A stretch of 64,000 bases of DNA from Thermoleophilaceae bacterium (lineage in GTDB: Bacteria; Actinomycetota; Thermoleophilia; Solirubrobacterales; Thermoleophilaceae), in contig JBBDYQ010000015.1 of the NCBI GenBank assembly GCA_040901445.1, positions 1 through 64,000 on the forward strand. Direction: 5' to 3'. The notes beneath the pieces were generated by a model. It saw only the letters and a list, made by a program, of their open reading frames with translations, did not search any database and was not told the origin of the DNA. Both the position numbers and the translations under genes were made by a program. Below, piece after piece: positions 45,062 through 52,655 of this stretch (positions are counted from its first letter, which is position 1; each line of letters starts with the position of its first letter).

Positions 45062-46645
45062 ATGCGCCGCGCCCGGCTCGGACTGTCGGCAGTCGTCGCG
45101 CTCGCCATGGGGGGTTGGGTGGCGCCCGACGCGGCGAGCGGCGAGCAGGTGACGGCCACGGCCGACGCCACCGTGGAGCGCGGCGAGCGCCGGCCGCTGG
45201 GCCGCGGCCCGCGCATTGCCACGGGCCGCGGCCGGCAGACGCTGCTGCGCTTCGGCTTCCGTCGCCCGCCGGCCGGCGTGGAGCGCGCCGTGCTGCGCGT
45301 GTACGTGTCGCGCGCCAGCCGCCGCGGCGTCGTGGTGTACCGCTCGCGGGGGCGCTGGAGCGAGCGACGCGTGACTTGGCGCTCGCGGCCGCGGCGCGGC
45401 CGGCGGGTGGCCAGCCGGCGCGGGCCGCTGCGGCGCGGCTGGCTGGAGCTCGACGTCACCCGCGCGGTGCGCGGCGGCGACGTGGGCCTGGTGGTGAAGT
45501 CCCTGGCCCGGCGGCCGGTGGTAATGCGGTCGCGTCAGGGCCGCCCGGGCCGTGTCCGCCCGCGGCTGCGCGTGGACGCCCGGCCACCGCCACGGCCGGG
45601 CGTCCTCGCGCCTAACGACTCTGCACCCCCGCAGGCACAGCCCAACCCGGCGGGACCTGCGCCGCCTGCTCCTCCCGCTCCTCCTCCACCGCCGCCGCCG
45701 GACCGGCCCGATCCGGCCACCGGCGCGCGAGCCGAGTTGCTCGCGCTGATCGGCGACGTGACCCAGGCCACCGCTTTCCGCTATGCGGCCACCGACGACC
45801 GCGGAATCCGCCTCGACGGCCTGGACGTGGCCGGGGACGGGCAGGGCGGCTACGTGGGCGTGTACCACGCGCTCGTGGGCGACGTGCTGGTGCTCTGCCT
45901 GGCCCGCTCCGCCGACCTGCTCACCTGGACCTGGGAGCGCGACCTCGAGGTGGGCGCGGCCCAAGGCACGCTGGCCCGGCAGGTGGACGGCGTCTGGGTG
46001 GCCGCCTACGAGAAGACGCTGCGCGACGGCGTGCACCTCCAGTTCCGCCGCTATCCGTCACTCGACACCCTCCTATCCGGCGCGCCCGATCGCGAGTTCA
46101 CGGCCCCGCTCACGCTCGCCCCCACGGCGGAGGGCACGCCCGACATCGTGGTGGCCACCCCGGCGGAGATCCGCGTGGGCCTGCACTACTACCGCGAGGC
46201 CCAGGTGGACCGTCAGGCGTCCGGGGTGCTGTCGGACTGGAGCCGCTGGCGGGTGGAGGACGAGCCGGAGCTGAACGCCGCCTTCGATGCGCTCGGCGTG
46301 CGCGGGAACGTGGGCGACCGCGACCGGATCACGTTCGGCGGCCAGCGCTTCGTGGTGCACGAGGCCCAGCTGGTCCCGGGCGACTGGGGCAGGTGGCGCA
46401 CCTGGCTGCGCGACGAGGCCAGCGGACGGATCGTGCCACTGGAGCTACGGACCCACGGCGGCAGCCTCGCGTTCGGCAACCCGGCGGTGACGTCGGTCAC
46501 GGCGCCGAGCGGCGCCCCGGCGCTGGTGATGACGGCGTTCCTCTTCCACGAGGGCGCGGCGCCCGGCGAGGCCGGCGAGCTCGTGTTCTACCGGGAGACG
46601 GGGCCGCCGCCGGACCCGCCGGAACCCGCCCCTCCCGAGGGCTGA
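45062..46645 (+). CDS. secreted protein with CBM96/DNRLRE-like domain and glycosidase-like beta-propeller
   Basis: A 527-residue exported protein: signal peptide (ending DAASGEQ) and an Arg-rich N-terminal beta domain (about 28-175; TATADATVERG, TLLRFGFRRPPAGVERAVLR, VVVYRSRGRWSERRVTW), the plan of disaggregatase-type carbohydrate-binding modules. A Pro/Ala linker (about 185-220) follows. The C-terminal region has repeated Trp strands (WTWERDLEVGAAQG, LSDWSRWRVEDEPELNAAFD), suggestive of a five-bladed propeller. Probably polysaccharide-binding or degrading. Confidence 0.65.
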   Translation: MRRARLGLSAVVALAMGGWVAPDAASGEQVTATADATVERGERRPLGRGPRIATGRGRQTLLRFGFRRPPAGVERAVLRVYVSRASRRGVVVYRSRGRWSERRVTWRSRPRRGRRVASRRGPLRRGWLELDVTRAVRGGDVGLVVKSLARRPVVMRSRQGRPGRVRPRLRVDARPPPRPGVLAPNDSAPPQAQPNPAGPAPPAPPAPPPPPPPDRPDPATGARAELLALIGDVTQATAFRYAATDDRGIRLDGLDVAGDGQGGYVGVYHALVGDVLVLCLARSADLLTWTWERDLEVGAAQGTLARQVDGVWVAAYEKTLRDGVHLQFRRYPSLDTLLSGAPDREFTAPLTLAPTAEGTPDIVVATPAEIRVGLHYYREAQVDRQASGVLSDWSRWRVEDEPELNAAFDALGVRGNVGDRDRITFGGQRFVVHEAQLVPGDWGRWRTWLRDEASGRIVPLELRTHGGSLAFGNPAVTSVTAPSGAPALVMTAFLFHEGAAPGEAGELVFYRETGPPPDPPEPAPPEG

Positions 46646-47381: not shown

Positions 47382-49238
47382 TCACCGCCGGCGCGCCCTC
47401 TGGGCCTTCGCCGGTCGTGAGCAGTTGCGGGGCGTCACGCCCAGCCCGGAGGCCCCGGCCCCCGCGGCGGAGCTCTCCACGCGGTACTGGGTGCCGCGCG
47501 TGTAGCCGGCGTAGCGCACGAACACGCCGGTCGCGTTGGTCTGGAACGCACCCGCGCTCGCGCTGCGAACCGCGGCCGGCCGGCGGCTGGACGAGGTGGC
47601 GGCGGAGCTCCAGGCAGAGCCGCGGTTGCGGGTGGCGCTGACCGTGGCCGTGGCGGCGTTGGCCGACGGGCGCACGTGGCCCCAGATGCGCACCGCGCCG
47701 CGCTTCCAGCGCAGCTTCGTGCGCACGCGGCCGCTGCGGGTGCGGCCACCCGCCCGGACGCGCTTGCGGCTCCACTGGCACTCGGCGAACAGGGCGAGCT
47801 TGAAGCTCGTGGCCGAGGGCTTGGCGGTGCCGTCCTCGAACAGCAGGCCCGACTGCCAGTCGCCCCACTCGCGCTTGCCGCGCGCGGTGGCCTCGGCCGA
47901 GACCCGGCCCATGTCGCGCAGCAGGAACTGCGGCCAGCTGCGCACGCGCTTGTTCGACCAGGCCAGGTACTCCGACCAGTTCAGGTACAGGGCCTGCTGG
48001 GCCGGGGTCCACGGCTTGTCGGGGTCGGGCGGGTTGGTCTCATAGCCGAACTCGGTCAGGTAGACGTCGCGGATCCGCGGCGAGATGCGGCGCATCTTCA
48101 CGAGCTTGTCGAGCGTCTTGGTGAGCCGGTCCAGCGCGCCGATCGGCAGGTTGTCCGGGTGCCGCGGGTCACGGTAGTCGGGGCGGTGCATGAGCGAGTA
48201 CGGGTGGTGCGAGAAGCCGTCGCCCTGGAGCGGCGTGTAGTTCGCGCAGTCACCGCGGGAGATCGGCTCGAGGTCCTCGTCCACGCACGCGAGCTCGCGG
48301 ATGAACAGCAGCGGCGCCGTGCCGCTCTGCTCGCTGCGCGGCGAGGTGGCGCCGGTGCTCGAGGTGGCGCCCACCAGCACCAGGCTGTCGGGCTGGATGC
48401 CCTTGATCGCCGGGTAGGCGACCTCCACGAGCTTGCGGTAGATGTGTGGCGACTTCGGGCGCCAGCCGTCCGACGTGCGCTCCCACTGCGGCTGGATGAA
48501 GCCCGGGTGGTTGGGCTCGTTCCACACCGTCCACCAGCTCACCTTGGGCAGCGGCGCGGCCGCGCGCGGCGCCTGGCGCTCACGCGCCGAGCGCTGCTGT
48601 GGCGCCTGCTGCTGCCCGAACCAGGGGCCGAAGAGCTGCTGCAGGAAGTCCTGGTCGCGCGACGGCTCCGGCTCGGGCTCGGGGGCCTGCGCCTGGTCGT
48701 CGGTCTCGGTCTCGGGAGCCTGCGGGACGAAGTCGCCGTTGTAGCGGCGCACCACGGCCTTGGTGAACTCCGCGAACTCGGCCGGGTTGATGTTCCACTT
48801 CGCCCGCCCGTCGTTGGGGTCGCCCTGCGTGGCCCACAGCGGCGCCCAGAAGGCGATGTCGATCATCGTCTGCAGGCCGGCCTCGTTGGCCATCACCACG
48901 GCGCGGTCGAGCGCCTTCCAGAAACCCCACGTGTCCGGGTAGGCGTTCGGGTCGCTCGCGTCGAAATCGGGACGCGTCGGGCTGTCGGCGTTCGGTGCGA
49001 GCACCGACCAGCCGGCGGTGAGCCGCACGCGGTCCACGCCCAGCGACTTGAGCCGCTCCATGTTGGCCCGGACCTGGTCGTCCGTCTGGTGCATGAGCGC
49101 GGCGTCGTCCTGCACGATCGTCTCGATCGGCGGACGGGCCCCCGCGGCGGCGGGGATGGCGGTCAGGGCGATGAGCGCGCACGCGAACGCCCCGGTGAGC
49201 TTGCGACGGAGGCTTCCGTGCCTCCCCTGGTTGAACAT
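47382..49238 (-). CDS. secreted TIM-barrel glycosidase (clan GH-A), riboswitch-controlled
   Basis: ATG 49238 follows AAGGAGGA. The 618-residue protein has a signal peptide (KLTGAFACALIALTAIPAAA) and a GH-A barrel: GVDRVRLTAGWSVLAP, acid/base in VSWWTVWNEPNHPGFIQPQW and nucleophile region RDVYLTEFGYETNP. A Gln/Pro-rich insert (about 160-215) precedes the acid/base strand. The C-terminal 130 residues form an Arg/Ala/Ser-rich beta domain (SRKRVRAGGRTRSGRVRTKL, VFVRYAGYTRGTQYRVE). Probably acts on extracellular or cell-surface glycan. A c-di-GMP aptamer lies immediately upstream. Confidence 0.82.
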   Translation of the reverse strand: MFNQGRHGSLRRKLTGAFACALIALTAIPAAAGARPPIETIVQDDAALMHQTDDQVRANMERLKSLGVDRVRLTAGWSVLAPNADSPTRPDFDASDPNAYPDTWGFWKALDRAVVMANEAGLQTMIDIAFWAPLWATQGDPNDGRAKWNINPAEFAEFTKAVVRRYNGDFVPQAPETETDDQAQAPEPEPEPSRDQDFLQQLFGPWFGQQQAPQQRSARERQAPRAAAPLPKVSWWTVWNEPNHPGFIQPQWERTSDGWRPKSPHIYRKLVEVAYPAIKGIQPDSLVLVGATSSTGATSPRSEQSGTAPLLFIRELACVDEDLEPISRGDCANYTPLQGDGFSHHPYSLMHRPDYRDPRHPDNLPIGALDRLTKTLDKLVKMRRISPRIRDVYLTEFGYETNPPDPDKPWTPAQQALYLNWSEYLAWSNKRVRSWPQFLLRDMGRVSAEATARGKREWGDWQSGLLFEDGTAKPSATSFKLALFAECQWSRKRVRAGGRTRSGRVRTKLRWKRGAVRIWGHVRPSANAATATVSATRNRGSAWSSAATSSSRRPAAVRSASAGAFQTNATGVFVRYAGYTRGTQYRVESSAAGAGASGLGVTPRNCSRPAKAQRARRR

Positions 49239-49251
49239 CTTGTCGGTCCTC

Positions 49252-49339
49252 CTTCGGCTGCTGGGCTGCCTCGATCCTTCGAGGCCCCTGGCTCTGCGTC
49301 CCCGCCTCACGGCGGGTTTGCCTTTGTCGAGAGTTGCTG
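49252..49339 (-). ncRNA. cyclic di-GMP-I (GEMM) riboswitch
   Basis: Reading the minus strand: CTCTCGACAAAGGCAAACC, hairpin CCGCC-GTGA-GGCGG (GNRA loop), then GGGACGCAGAGCC, a second stem GGGGCCTCGA...TCGAGGCAGCCC, and CAGCCGAAGG. This follows the GEMM-I consensus (ACAAAGGCAAACC / GGGACGCAAAGCC / tetraloop / GCCGAAG) nearly base for base. The aptamer's 3' end abuts the AAGGAGGA of the glycosidase, so ligand binding could gate translation. It starts 4 bases after the ECF sigma stop. Confidence 0.9.
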
Positions 49340-49343
49340 GGTC

Positions 49344-50843
49344 CTACCGCTCCTGGACGACGCCGCCGACGAGGTCTCCCACGTCCACGCGCACGCCATC
49401 CCCATCGATCTGCACGCCCGGGAGCCGGACCTCCGGCATGGGCGTGCCCTGCGGCACCCTGACGGTGCCCTGCAAGTTGTCCAGGAGCTCGGTCGCCTGG
49501 CGGCGGACCGGTCCCGTGATGCGCTCGACCTCCTGGGTGAGGGGATCGAGCGAGGCAGCAGGCGACTCCTGCGGCTGCGGCGCGGGCGCGGGCTGCGCCG
49601 GGGCCTGCTCGCCACCCGCGGCGGGCGCCGGCGCGGCGGGAGCGTCTTCCGCGGGCGCGGCGGCCTCGCGCTCGCTGCGCGGCTCCTCCTTCGGCGCCCG
49701 GCTCGTCTCGGCGGCGCGCCCGCTCTCGCGCTTCGGCGCGCCGGCGTCCGGTGAGACCGCGGCCCCGCCGGCGCCGCGCTCGGCCTGAGCCGCCGCGGGC
49801 GCCCCGCCGCCGTCCTTCACCGGGTCGCGCTGCTCGGGGCCCCGATGGGCCACGGGCACCGCCATGGCCACGACGGCAGCGCCCGCCGCGACCTTTGCCG
49901 CGCCGGCCGGGCCCGCGCCCGAGAGGGCCGGCCCGGCGACGTCGGCGACGCGCCGTCCCGCGCGTGCAAAGAGCTCGATCACCGGAAGGAAGAAGACCCC
50001 CGAGAGCAGCCGCGGGCGCGCGTAGCCGCTGCACTCCGAGCAGGCGGCGCGGTGCGAGGCCAGGCGGTGCCCGCGCGGCAGGCGGCCACGGTCGTCCACC
50101 GCGCGGCGGTACTCGCCACACCGGATCTCGCGCCCGGCGCGCCGATCGGTCAGCGACTGGCGGGCGTCCGCCACGAGGGCCTGGCTGCGAGCGGGCGTGG
50201 TGTCGAGCGCGGCGGCGATCTCCTCGTGAGACATGCCCGACAGCTCGCGCATGACGATGGCGGCGCGCTGACGCTCGGACAGCGCCTGAAGATCGGCCAC
50301 GAGCCGCTCGAGGCCCTCGCGGCGGCCGAGAACGTCGCCCGGGGTCTCGTTCATGGGCACCTCCAGCGCCTCGTCGGAGGAGGCGAGCTGGGGGCCGCGG
50401 TTGCGCTGGCGGATGCGGTCGAGCGCGGCGTTGCGCGCGATCGTGTGGATCCACGGCCGGAACTCGGGCCGCTCGGCGCGCCGGCTCAGCGTGGCGTAGG
50501 CGCGCGACATCGTCTCGGACGCGGCGTCCTCTGCCTCCTCGCGGGTGCCCACGATCGTGAAGCAGAAGGCGCTGATCGGCCGCCAGTAGCGCTCGAACAG
50601 CACGCCGAACGGGTCTGGGCGCACGCGCCCGACGTTCCAGGCCAGCCAGTTGTCGGACTTGCGCTCCTGAAGGCCAGCGGGGACCTGCCGGAACAGGGGC
50701 GACGGCGCGCACGGCTCGTCCGGCCGGCCGGACCAGGAGCTCGCGGCCGGCGGCAGGGCGACGACGTCGAGCAGCGCGTCGAGCCGCTCGACTCCCTCGT
50801 CCTCCGCCGGCGCGCGGAGCGCGTATGCGTTAGCGGCGGGCAC
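49344..50843 (-). CDS. ECF sigma factor fused to zinc finger, membrane segment and exported tail
   Basis: From GTG 50843 (GGAGG four bases upstream) 499 residues: region 2 (about 76-145; DPFGVLFERYWRPISAFCFT, EFRPWIHTIARNAALDRIRQ), region 4 (about 185-235; LSERQRAAIVMRELSGMSHE), a zf-HC2-type anti-sigma finger (IRCGEYRR...HRAACSECSG), a hydrophobic helix (AAKVAAGAAVVAMAVPVAH), an Ala/Pro/Glu-rich stretch and a terminal domain (GTPMPEVRLPGVQIDGDGVR). This gives a sigma factor carrying its own anti-sigma-like module, possibly freed by proteolysis. It overlaps the upstream small gene by 14 bases. Confidence 0.85.
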   Translation of the reverse strand: MPAANAYALRAPAEDEGVERLDALLDVVALPPAASSWSGRPDEPCAPSPLFRQVPAGLQERKSDNWLAWNVGRVRPDPFGVLFERYWRPISAFCFTIVGTREEAEDAASETMSRAYATLSRRAERPEFRPWIHTIARNAALDRIRQRNRGPQLASSDEALEVPMNETPGDVLGRREGLERLVADLQALSERQRAAIVMRELSGMSHEEIAAALDTTPARSQALVADARQSLTDRRAGREIRCGEYRRAVDDRGRLPRGHRLASHRAACSECSGYARPRLLSGVFFLPVIELFARAGRRVADVAGPALSGAGPAGAAKVAAGAAVVAMAVPVAHRGPEQRDPVKDGGGAPAAAQAERGAGGAAVSPDAGAPKRESGRAAETSRAPKEEPRSEREAAAPAEDAPAAPAPAAGGEQAPAQPAPAPQPQESPAASLDPLTQEVERITGPVRRQATELLDNLQGTVRVPQGTPMPEVRLPGVQIDGDGVRVDVGDLVGGVVQER

Positions 50844-51135
50844 CGGCCCTCCGCGCTGCCCTGCGCGCATTGCAGACGCGCGTGTAGCGCCGGGCGGCCT
50901 TGCGGCCGGCCCGCTTGGCGGCGCGGCGCTGCTTCGCGCCACATGCCCGGCGGGTGCCCTTGCGGTTGCTCGTGGCCTTCTCCTCGCCGGCGCAATCGGT
51001 GCCGAGATGGCCGCAGGTGTATGCGTACTGCTGGTCCGGCGACATCGCCCGCTGCTCCTGCGCCGACGCGGCGGGAGCCGCGGCACCGAGGGCCAGCGTG
51101 GCGACCAGCGTGGCAGCGATCCTGTTGCGGTTCAT
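50830..51135 (-). CDS. small secreted Arg/Lys-rich protein
   Basis: 101 residues: signal peptide (RIAATLVATLALGAAAPAAS), a Cys-containing middle (YAYTCGHLGTDCAGEE) and a C-terminal half very rich in Arg/Ala/Lys (AKQRRAAKRAGRKAARRYTR). Four Cys could form two disulfides. It starts one base into the stop of the preceding small gene (TGATG) and overlaps the sigma gene, so all are one operon. Function unknown; exported polycations of this size may bind cell-wall polymers. Confidence 0.65.
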   Translation of the reverse strand: MNRNRIAATLVATLALGAAAPAASAQEQRAMSPDQQYAYTCGHLGTDCAGEEKATSNRKGTRRACGAKQRRAAKRAGRKAARRYTRVCNARRAARRAGARR

Positions 51136-51326
51136 CAGTCCGTCCTCCCTGACATCAGCGTTTCCACGGCGCCGAGCTCGTTCGCCACACCCTGCAGCCG
51201 GTCCGACACCAGGGCCAGCTCCACCGTGGTGAAGACGGTCTCGCGCATGCGCCCGAGCAGCTCGAAGGTCTCGGAGCGAAGCGTGGCGACCCCGTCCATC
51301 AGGTCATGTGTGCGATCGATGGTCAT
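51135..51326 (-). CDS. mini helical protein 1 (63 aa), paralogue of the next gene
   Basis: From ATG 51326 (AAAGGA upstream): MTIDRTHDLMDGVATLRSET, FELLGRMRETVFTTVELALV, SDRLQGVANELGAVETLMSG. All-helical, no Cys, no membrane segment. The patterns V(A/S)(T/N)(L/I)R-x-E-x-F-x-L and LALV...QxVANxLG recur in mini protein 2, so the two arose by duplication. It is operonic with the ECF sigma gene. No known family recognised; an anti-sigma or adaptor role is only a hypothesis. Confidence 0.65.
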   Translation of the reverse strand: MTIDRTHDLMDGVATLRSETFELLGRMRETVFTTVELALVSDRLQGVANELGAVETLMSGRTD

Positions 51327-51327
51327 T

Positions 51328-51418
51328 GCGGTCCTTTCCCGTGCTTCCGTGCTCGCCAGTTCGACGCCGGACCTCAAGCGTCCGGGGATGGCTTCGACGG
51401 ATGGCGGAAAAGGACCGC
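51328..51418 (-). promoter_or_regulatory. candidate ribosome-binding-site-masking inverted repeat
   Basis: On the minus strand GCGGTCCTTTTCC (51418-51406) is complementary, with one bulged base, to GGAAAGGACCGC (51339-51328), which holds the AAAGGA of mini protein 1. A smaller stem (CCGGAC/GTCCGG, 51367-51385) lies in the loop. It could limit translation of the downstream genes relative to mini protein 2. Confidence 0.45.
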
Positions 51419-51424
51419 TCTGAA

Positions 51425-51643
51425 CTAAAGGTCCAGCACGCGCGCGGGTTCGTAGGGCTCCGCGCGGAGGTCTGTCTGGATGCGGCCGAGGCTGTTGGCC
51501 ACGGCCTGCATGCGCACCAGCGCGAGGGTGCGGAGCGGGTCCGCATCGTCCTGATCTGCTGCGTGCGACAGCTCCTTGATGAGCTGGAACGCCTCGTCAC
51601 GGATGTTCGACACCCGCGAGTAGAGGTCCTGGGCCTGGCACAT
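51425..51643 (-). CDS. mini helical protein 2 (72 aa)
   Basis: From ATG 51643, preceded by GGAGGACTCGC: MCQAQDLYSRVSNIRDEAFQ, LIKELSHAADQDDADPLRTL, ALVRMQAVANSLGRIQTDLR and a tail YEPARVLDL. Homologous in layout to mini protein 1, with a short acidic insert between the helices. First gene of the operon that runs through mini protein 1, the basic secreted protein, the ECF sigma factor and possibly the glycosidase. It is divergent from the FliA/WhiG-type sigma gene. The RsiG c-di-GMP motif (E-x3-S-x2-R-x3-Q-x3-D) was looked for and is not present. Confidence 0.65.
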   Translation of the reverse strand: MCQAQDLYSRVSNIRDEAFQLIKELSHAADQDDADPLRTLALVRMQAVANSLGRIQTDLRAEPYEPARVLDL

Positions 51644-51794
51644 TTTGCGAGTCCTCCCCGTCGGTCTGCCTGAGGGAGATGACGGTGCCTGCGGCGCCCG
51701 GGCGCAGGCGGTATCGCTCTTTGCACGGGTTCGCTTGCCAAATGCGGCAGGAACGGACACGCTGGGCGGCGAAGAGGGGGATGGGAGGACTCGC
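51644..51794. promoter_or_regulatory. divergent leader with mirrored ribosome-binding sites and a hairpin
   Basis: GGAGGACTCGC precedes both divergent start codons (minus strand 51656-51646, plus strand 51784-51794), forming an 11-bp perfect inverted repeat across the spacer. Between them lies a stem GCCTGCG/CGCAGGC (51687-51693 with 51703-51709). No standard -35/-10 pair was found. The spacer must hold both promoters. Confidence 0.5.
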
Positions 51795-52655
51795 ATGGCC
51801 GCGATCCGTGAGACAGCAGGACTTTGGCGGCGCTATGCCGCGAGGCGCGACGACGAGACGCGCGCCGCGCTCATGCTCGCCTACTGGCCGCTCGTGAAGG
51901 AGGTGGCCGTCTCGGTGCGGGCCAAGCTGCCGGCGCACGTCGAGGAGGCGGACATGATCTCCGCCGGGCTGTTCGGGCTCCTGTCGGCCATCGAGCGCTT
52001 CGATCCCGCCGACGCCCCCCGCTTCGCGGCCTTCGCGCGCACGCGTGTGCGCGGAGCGATCATCGACGACATGCGCGCGCACGACTGGGCGCCGCGCCAC
52101 GTGCGCGAGCGAGCCCGGGAGCTGCGCGAGATCGAGTCGGCCCTCGAGCAGAAGCTGCACCGCAGCGCCACCCGGGGCGAGCTGGCGGCCGCGCTCGGGC
52201 TGACGGCCGACCAGGTGCACGACCGCCTGGCCCGCAACCTGCTCGCGCAGGTGGCGGCGCTCGACGCGGAGCTGCTGGCGGAGCCGCCCGGCGAGCCGGT
52301 CCGCCTGCTCGACATGATCGAGGACGACCGCGCCGACGACCCGGTCCAGTCGCTCGCGGCCGAGGAGCTGGGCAACGGGGTCGTGGACGCCATCCTCTCG
52401 CTGCCCTGGCGTGAGCGCCGCGTGCTCACCCACCATTACCGCCGCGGCCTCACCTTCCGCGAGATCGGCGTGTCGCTGGGAGTGAGCGAGTCGCGCGTGT
52501 CCCAGATCCACACCCAGGTCATGCGCCGCCTTCGCGACGAGATCCAGGTGCTGCTGGGGGGCGACGCCTTCCCGCTGCGCACGGTCGTGGACGCCGCGGC
52601 GGCCGCGCTCGAGGAGCTCGACCCGGTCGAGCGGGCCACGGCGCTGCAGCGCTAG
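51795..52655 (+). CDS. sigma-70 family factor of the FliA/WhiG type
   Basis: A 286-residue alternative sigma with region 2 (ALMLAYWPLVKEVAVSVRAK, RFAAFARTRVRGAIIDDMRA), region 3 (ARELREIESALEQKLHRSAT) and region 4 (LPWRERRVLTHHYRRGLTFR, GVSESRVSQIHTQVMRRLRD). The SRVSQIH helix and RGAIIDDMR block are typical of the sigma-28/WhiG group, which controls motility, pili or development. A C-terminal extension of about 35 residues follows region 4. No flagellar genes are nearby, so targets are unknown. Confidence 0.88.
   Translation: MAAIRETAGLWRRYAARRDDETRAALMLAYWPLVKEVAVSVRAKLPAHVEEADMISAGLFGLLSAIERFDPADAPRFAAFARTRVRGAIIDDMRAHDWAPRHVRERARELREIESALEQKLHRSATRGELAAALGLTADQVHDRLARNLLAQVAALDAELLAEPPGEPVRLLDMIEDDRADDPVQSLAAEELGNGVVDAILSLPWRERRVLTHHYRRGLTFREIGVSLGVSESRVSQIHTQVMRRLRDEIQVLLGGDAFPLRTVVDAAAAALEELDPVERATALQR

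Follow-up and report, generated by a model that had tools for sequence, protein, structure and literature searches.

Two homologous mini-protein genes beside a divergent WhiG-like sigma factor gene in a Thermoleophilaceae genome

Two tandem genes on the minus strand of a 64,000-nucleotide contig stretch (the window, i.e. the whole DNA analysed) encode homologous mini-proteins of 63 and 72 residues, here named P1 and P2. They are acidic members of a very small and lineage-restricted protein family without a known affiliation, for which a fold of two helices forming a hairpin is predicted. The explanation that best accounts for the locus overall, to which we assign a probability of roughly one third, is that these proteins are lineage-restricted regulators that act by binding other proteins, with expression of P1 gated by an RNA hairpin. 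Three elements of the locus are new here: the identity of the facing sigma factor as a third, divergent WhiG paralogue that has lost contact residues, a predicted hairpin over the Shine-Dalgarno sequence of P1, and a riboswitch behind the gene of an ECF sigma factor.

It is not settled how sigma factors acquire controllers and exchange them, and the RsiG-WhiG switch is one of the few whose evolution has been traced. If true, the case of a WhiG paralogue without the RsiG/c-di-GMP contacts beside an unrelated pair of small proteins would provide a natural experiment in regulator replacement.

The mini-proteins and their family

An earlier note on this DNA had described two duplicated mini-protein genes at this place. 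Both reading frames were recovered from the minus strand:

51425 to 51643 with stop codon (51428 to 51643 without), minus strand: P2, a mini-protein of 72 residues, first gene of the minus-strand unit
51135 to 51326 with stop codon (51138 to 51326 without), minus strand: P1, a mini-protein of 63 residues and paralogue of P2, identified as open reading frame and by profile matches

A good ribosome-binding site precedes each gene, and the GC fractions at the three codon positions (0.67/0.43/0.89 for P1 and 0.75/0.39/0.89 for P2) resemble those of the adjoining genes, which confirms that both are coding. A Smith-Waterman alignment of the two proteins gave a score of 66 compared to a mean of 21.8 for shuffled sequences (z = 10.9), and none of 2000 shuffles scored as high. 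P1 and P2 are thus real homologues, with a common core of DLxxxVxxlRxExFxL plus lQxVAnxLG. The proposed duplication therefore stood, but the alignment of the 'LALV' segments on which it had partly been based did not: these segments are out of register with the LQ/MQ that follows and can only be matched with a gap of two residues inside helix 2.

Both proteins are net acidic. AlphaFold models, which were built from an alignment of only the two sequences, predict a helical hairpin for P1 (helices 2-29 and 34-62, pLDDT 82) as well as for P2 (helices 3-31 and 36-61, pLDDT 78.7), in agreement with the helical character supposed before. Neither protein had a match in Pfam, NCBIfam, PHROGs or PADLOC, such that the earlier failure to place them in a known family persists. 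Searches for relatives found two further members, which brings the known family to only four. The third is a paralogue of 63 residues with a TTG start, encoded elsewhere in this genome on a different contig, where the reading frame of a GNAT acetyltransferase begins about 20 nt or less 3' of its stop codon. The fourth, of 70 residues, occurs in one other genome of the bacterial family (G203), where a lysine-methyltransferase-like gene follows at a distance of about 22 nt. Further convincing relatives were found neither in a scan of the bacterial family nor in 232 genomes of the order, 399 of the class and 397 of the phylum, nor in GTDB contigs, viral contigs, plasmids or phages. Weak matches were judged to be undecided or due to chance. 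One of them, a membrane protein (G508; L089:1174-1749, plus strand; E 1e-4 for one genome), carries the segment LDDAAWELDAVEALLAGR, which bears a weak resemblance to the second helix of the mini-proteins; it is a possible distant relative.

The gene row, a predicted RNA hairpin and a riboswitch

Together with P2 and P1 the following elements make up the minus-strand row, given in the order in which they would be transcribed:

51405 to 51418, minus strand: 5' arm of an RNA hairpin, GCGGUCCUUUUCCG, starting 6 nt downstream of the stop codon of P2
51328 to 51341, minus strand: 3' arm of the hairpin, CGGGAAAGGACCGC, containing the P1 Shine-Dalgarno sequence
50830 to 51135, minus strand: Arg/Lys-rich protein of 101 residues (the polycation), probably secreted, whose ATG overlaps the P1 stop codon
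49344 to 50870, minus strand: ECF sigma factor with a long C-terminal extension (Sigma70_r2 and r4_2)
49252 to 49331, minus strand: c-di-GMP-I-GGC riboswitch aptamer (RF03167; 63.3 bits, gathering score 59)
47382 to 49238, minus strand: probably secreted protein of 618 residues without a Pfam match, downstream of the riboswitch

The earlier note had placed the mini-proteins at the head of an operon that continues with the polycation and the sigma factor. The order P1, polycation, ECF sigma factor is real: the stop codon of P1 overlaps the ATG of the polycation gene (TGATG), which in turn overlaps the ATG of the sigma factor gene at 50870. To call the pair the head is reasonable, but a gap of 98 nt separates P2 from P1. 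The polycation belongs to no family, and no homologue of it was found in the fetched loci.

The gap contains the predicted hairpin, a stem of 14 bp in which the unpaired probability across the P1 Shine-Dalgarno sequence stays below 0.01. Compared to dinucleotide shuffles its fold reached z = -4.6 and -4.2, and values of -4 or lower occurred in only 1 of 561 random stretches of the window. The raw folding energy was not rare in this GC-rich window (686 of 2130 stretches). Upstream of the other two family members no comparable hairpin was seen (z = -0.67 and 0.45). A ribosome that terminates at the P2 stop codon would disturb the hairpin that is predicted to sequester the Shine-Dalgarno sequence. 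P1 and then, via the overlapping stop and start codons, the polycation and the ECF sigma factor would in this way probably be expressed only upon translation of P2. Translational coupling from P2 onward is the simplest reading of the predicted hairpin and the gene overlaps, and we consider the odds for it to be about even.

The riboswitch aptamer lies 12 nt after the stop codon of the ECF sigma factor gene and just ahead of the Shine-Dalgarno sequence of the gene for the 618-residue protein. It resembles RF03167 in being full length and in exceeding the gathering score and differs in its position inside the gene row, after a sigma factor gene and ahead of a probably secreted protein. With this aptamer the gene row does contain an element of c-di-GMP control, albeit not one located at the mini-proteins. 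Near the locus, a gene on the plus strand (45062 to 46645) encodes a protein of 527 residues with a CBM96 carbohydrate-binding domain.

The divergent WhiG-like sigma factor

Upstream of P2 the gene row faces a sigma factor gene on the opposite strand:

51646 to 51658, minus strand: one arm of a perfect 13-bp inverted repeat, which spans the ribosome-binding site of P2
51783 to 51795, plus strand: second arm of this repeat, which spans the ribosome-binding site of the facing sigma factor gene
51795 to 52655, plus strand: sigma factor of the FliA/WhiG family (TIGR02479), third paralogue, with K35 kept and V39/S40 at the next contact positions

The inverted repeat may in part represent convergence of the two ribosome-binding sites. 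Should the two divergent transcripts overlap, they would have complementary leaders.

The assignment of the facing gene to the WhiG/FliA type held: it matched TIGR02479 at 216.8 bits (cut-off 189.6), and its best solved match was WhiG of S. venezuelae (6pfj, E 3e-55). Three sigma factors of this type are found in the genome, namely a FliA-like protein in the flagellar region, a conserved WhiG with an orthologue in most genomes of the family and the divergent protein encoded at this locus. The latter retains the recognition helix of region 4.2 (SESRVSQIHT) that is typical of the family and 94 of the 162 conserved columns of the WhiG orthologues. Unlike the family, it forms a very long branch and lacks two residues of the c-di-GMP contact, and none of the 30 other genomes of the bacterial family contains a close counterpart.

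In S. venezuelae WhiG the residues K57, G61 and R62 touch c-di-GMP in the complex with RsiG, and they are reported to be conserved in RsiG-binding WhiGs (PMC8325347). The WhiG orthologues carry K in 27 of 27, G in 27 of 27 and R in 26 of 27 rows at these positions, and the WhiG of the genome itself has all three. At the same K-x3-G-R positions the divergent sigma factor has K35, V39 and S40, i.e. the lysine is kept while glycine and arginine are lost. Because of this loss the divergent sigma factor is, judged from its residues, probably not a client of RsiG. A regulator other than RsiG therefore becomes more plausible, which is the strongest new point for the idea that the mini-proteins are anti-sigma factors. 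With two of three contact residues missing, the divergent sigma factor would probably need another controller.

Possible roles of the mini-proteins

In this bacterial class, the accepted model of a small helical WhiG partner is the single-motif anti-sigma factor RsiG, and such proteins are known from Thermoleophilia (PMC8325347). P1 and P2 could thus be degenerate or divergent single-motif RsiGs that act on the WhiG-like sigma factor with c-di-GMP; they are of similar size range and helical and adjoin a sigma factor of the right type. The genome does possess a true RsiG, a protein of 86 residues on contig C7 that is detected by PF22802 at 73.5 bits and whose motif EQEVSYRRRILHGKID fits all five positions of E(X)3S(X)2R(X)3[Q/H](X)3D, with H at the fourth. 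The same profile matches neither P1 and P2 nor the other two family members, at most two of the five motif positions are present in P1 or P2, and a profile comparison revealed no similarity to the genome's RsiG. The shape differs as well, since a two-helix hairpin is predicted for the mini-proteins, whereas the RsiGs of Rubrobacter and Thermoleophilia consist of a single motif helix that dimerises. Given also that the facing sigma factor lacks the matching glycine and arginine contacts, we regard this explanation as extremely improbable. The earlier statement that the mini-proteins are not RsiG is borne out, and a kinship was rejected on the motif count and the profile comparison. The gene of the true RsiG (L121:1495-1755, plus strand) adjoins an apparent FHA-domain gene and an apparent MerR-type gene.

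The predicted fold also recalls Rop/Rom, a two-helix hairpin of about 63 residues. The mini-proteins match its shape with TM scores of 0.73 and 0.77 at near-equal length, and the locus offers possible targets for an RNA-binding hairpin protein of this kind, namely a strong RNA hairpin and divergent leaders that are complementary. However, neither match was significant (profile E 0.4, Foldseek E 1.9), the mini-proteins are acidic and without a match in plasmid records, and the two remaining members lack a comparable hairpin upstream. Rop-like RNA binding is therefore very improbable, and a kinship with Rop was rejected on the insignificant sequence and fold scores.

A helical-hairpin fold fits many functions, and P1 and P2 may be small helical proteins of another kind, such as an adaptor, an enzyme cofactor or a stress protein, whose vicinity to sigma factor genes is incidental. 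The earlier note had named the absence of a conserved linkage to sigma factor genes as a refutation of its proposal, and in the members and loci found no such linkage was seen: neither the third nor the fourth member adjoins such a gene, both being located instead just upstream of a gene for a small modifying enzyme (the GNAT and the methyltransferase-like gene, respectively), and no mini-protein was found at the other FliA/WhiG or ECF loci examined. Within what was searched, members of the family are thus rare and show no tie to sigma factor genes. The missing linkage, which outside this genome was judged from other genera, refutes an anti-sigma role only weakly, because in this genome rsiG (contig C7) is itself unlinked to the conserved whiG (contig C25); unlinked members may still bind a sigma factor. 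The two tandem copies within one locus and the adjoining sigma factor that probably lacks its usual controller also speak against a merely incidental neighbourhood. On balance such a neighbourhood has in our view an equal chance of being the right or the wrong explanation and is at least as likely as a partnership between the mini-proteins and the divergent sigma factor.

Protein-binding regulators remain our preferred reading of P1 and P2. Hairpins of this type usually pair into bundles and bind another protein, and the two would thus probably be regulatory binding partners that are encoded in one transcription unit with the polycation and the ECF sigma factor. The likeliest single partner would be the divergent WhiG-like sigma factor 150 bp away; this assignment is tentative and on the doubtful side. 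An anti-sigma role is better motivated than before and may be considered a plausible candidate, at a locus without conserved linkage. The full scenario, in which a WhiG paralogue escaped from RsiG and c-di-GMP by loss of contacts and gained an unrelated, divergently encoded pair P1/P2 under the gate of an RNA hairpin, appears unlikely.

Neither P2 and P1 nor the divergent sigma factor gene is preceded by a flagellar-type promoter, CTCAAG-N14/15-GCCGATCA, such that nothing points to feedback by this sigma factor. Promoter-like sites of this form occur at flagellar loci of this genome (L086 and L087; G000 C25:92000-111500 and C25:136000-148000) and could be used as a species-specific model of FliA/WhiG promoters.
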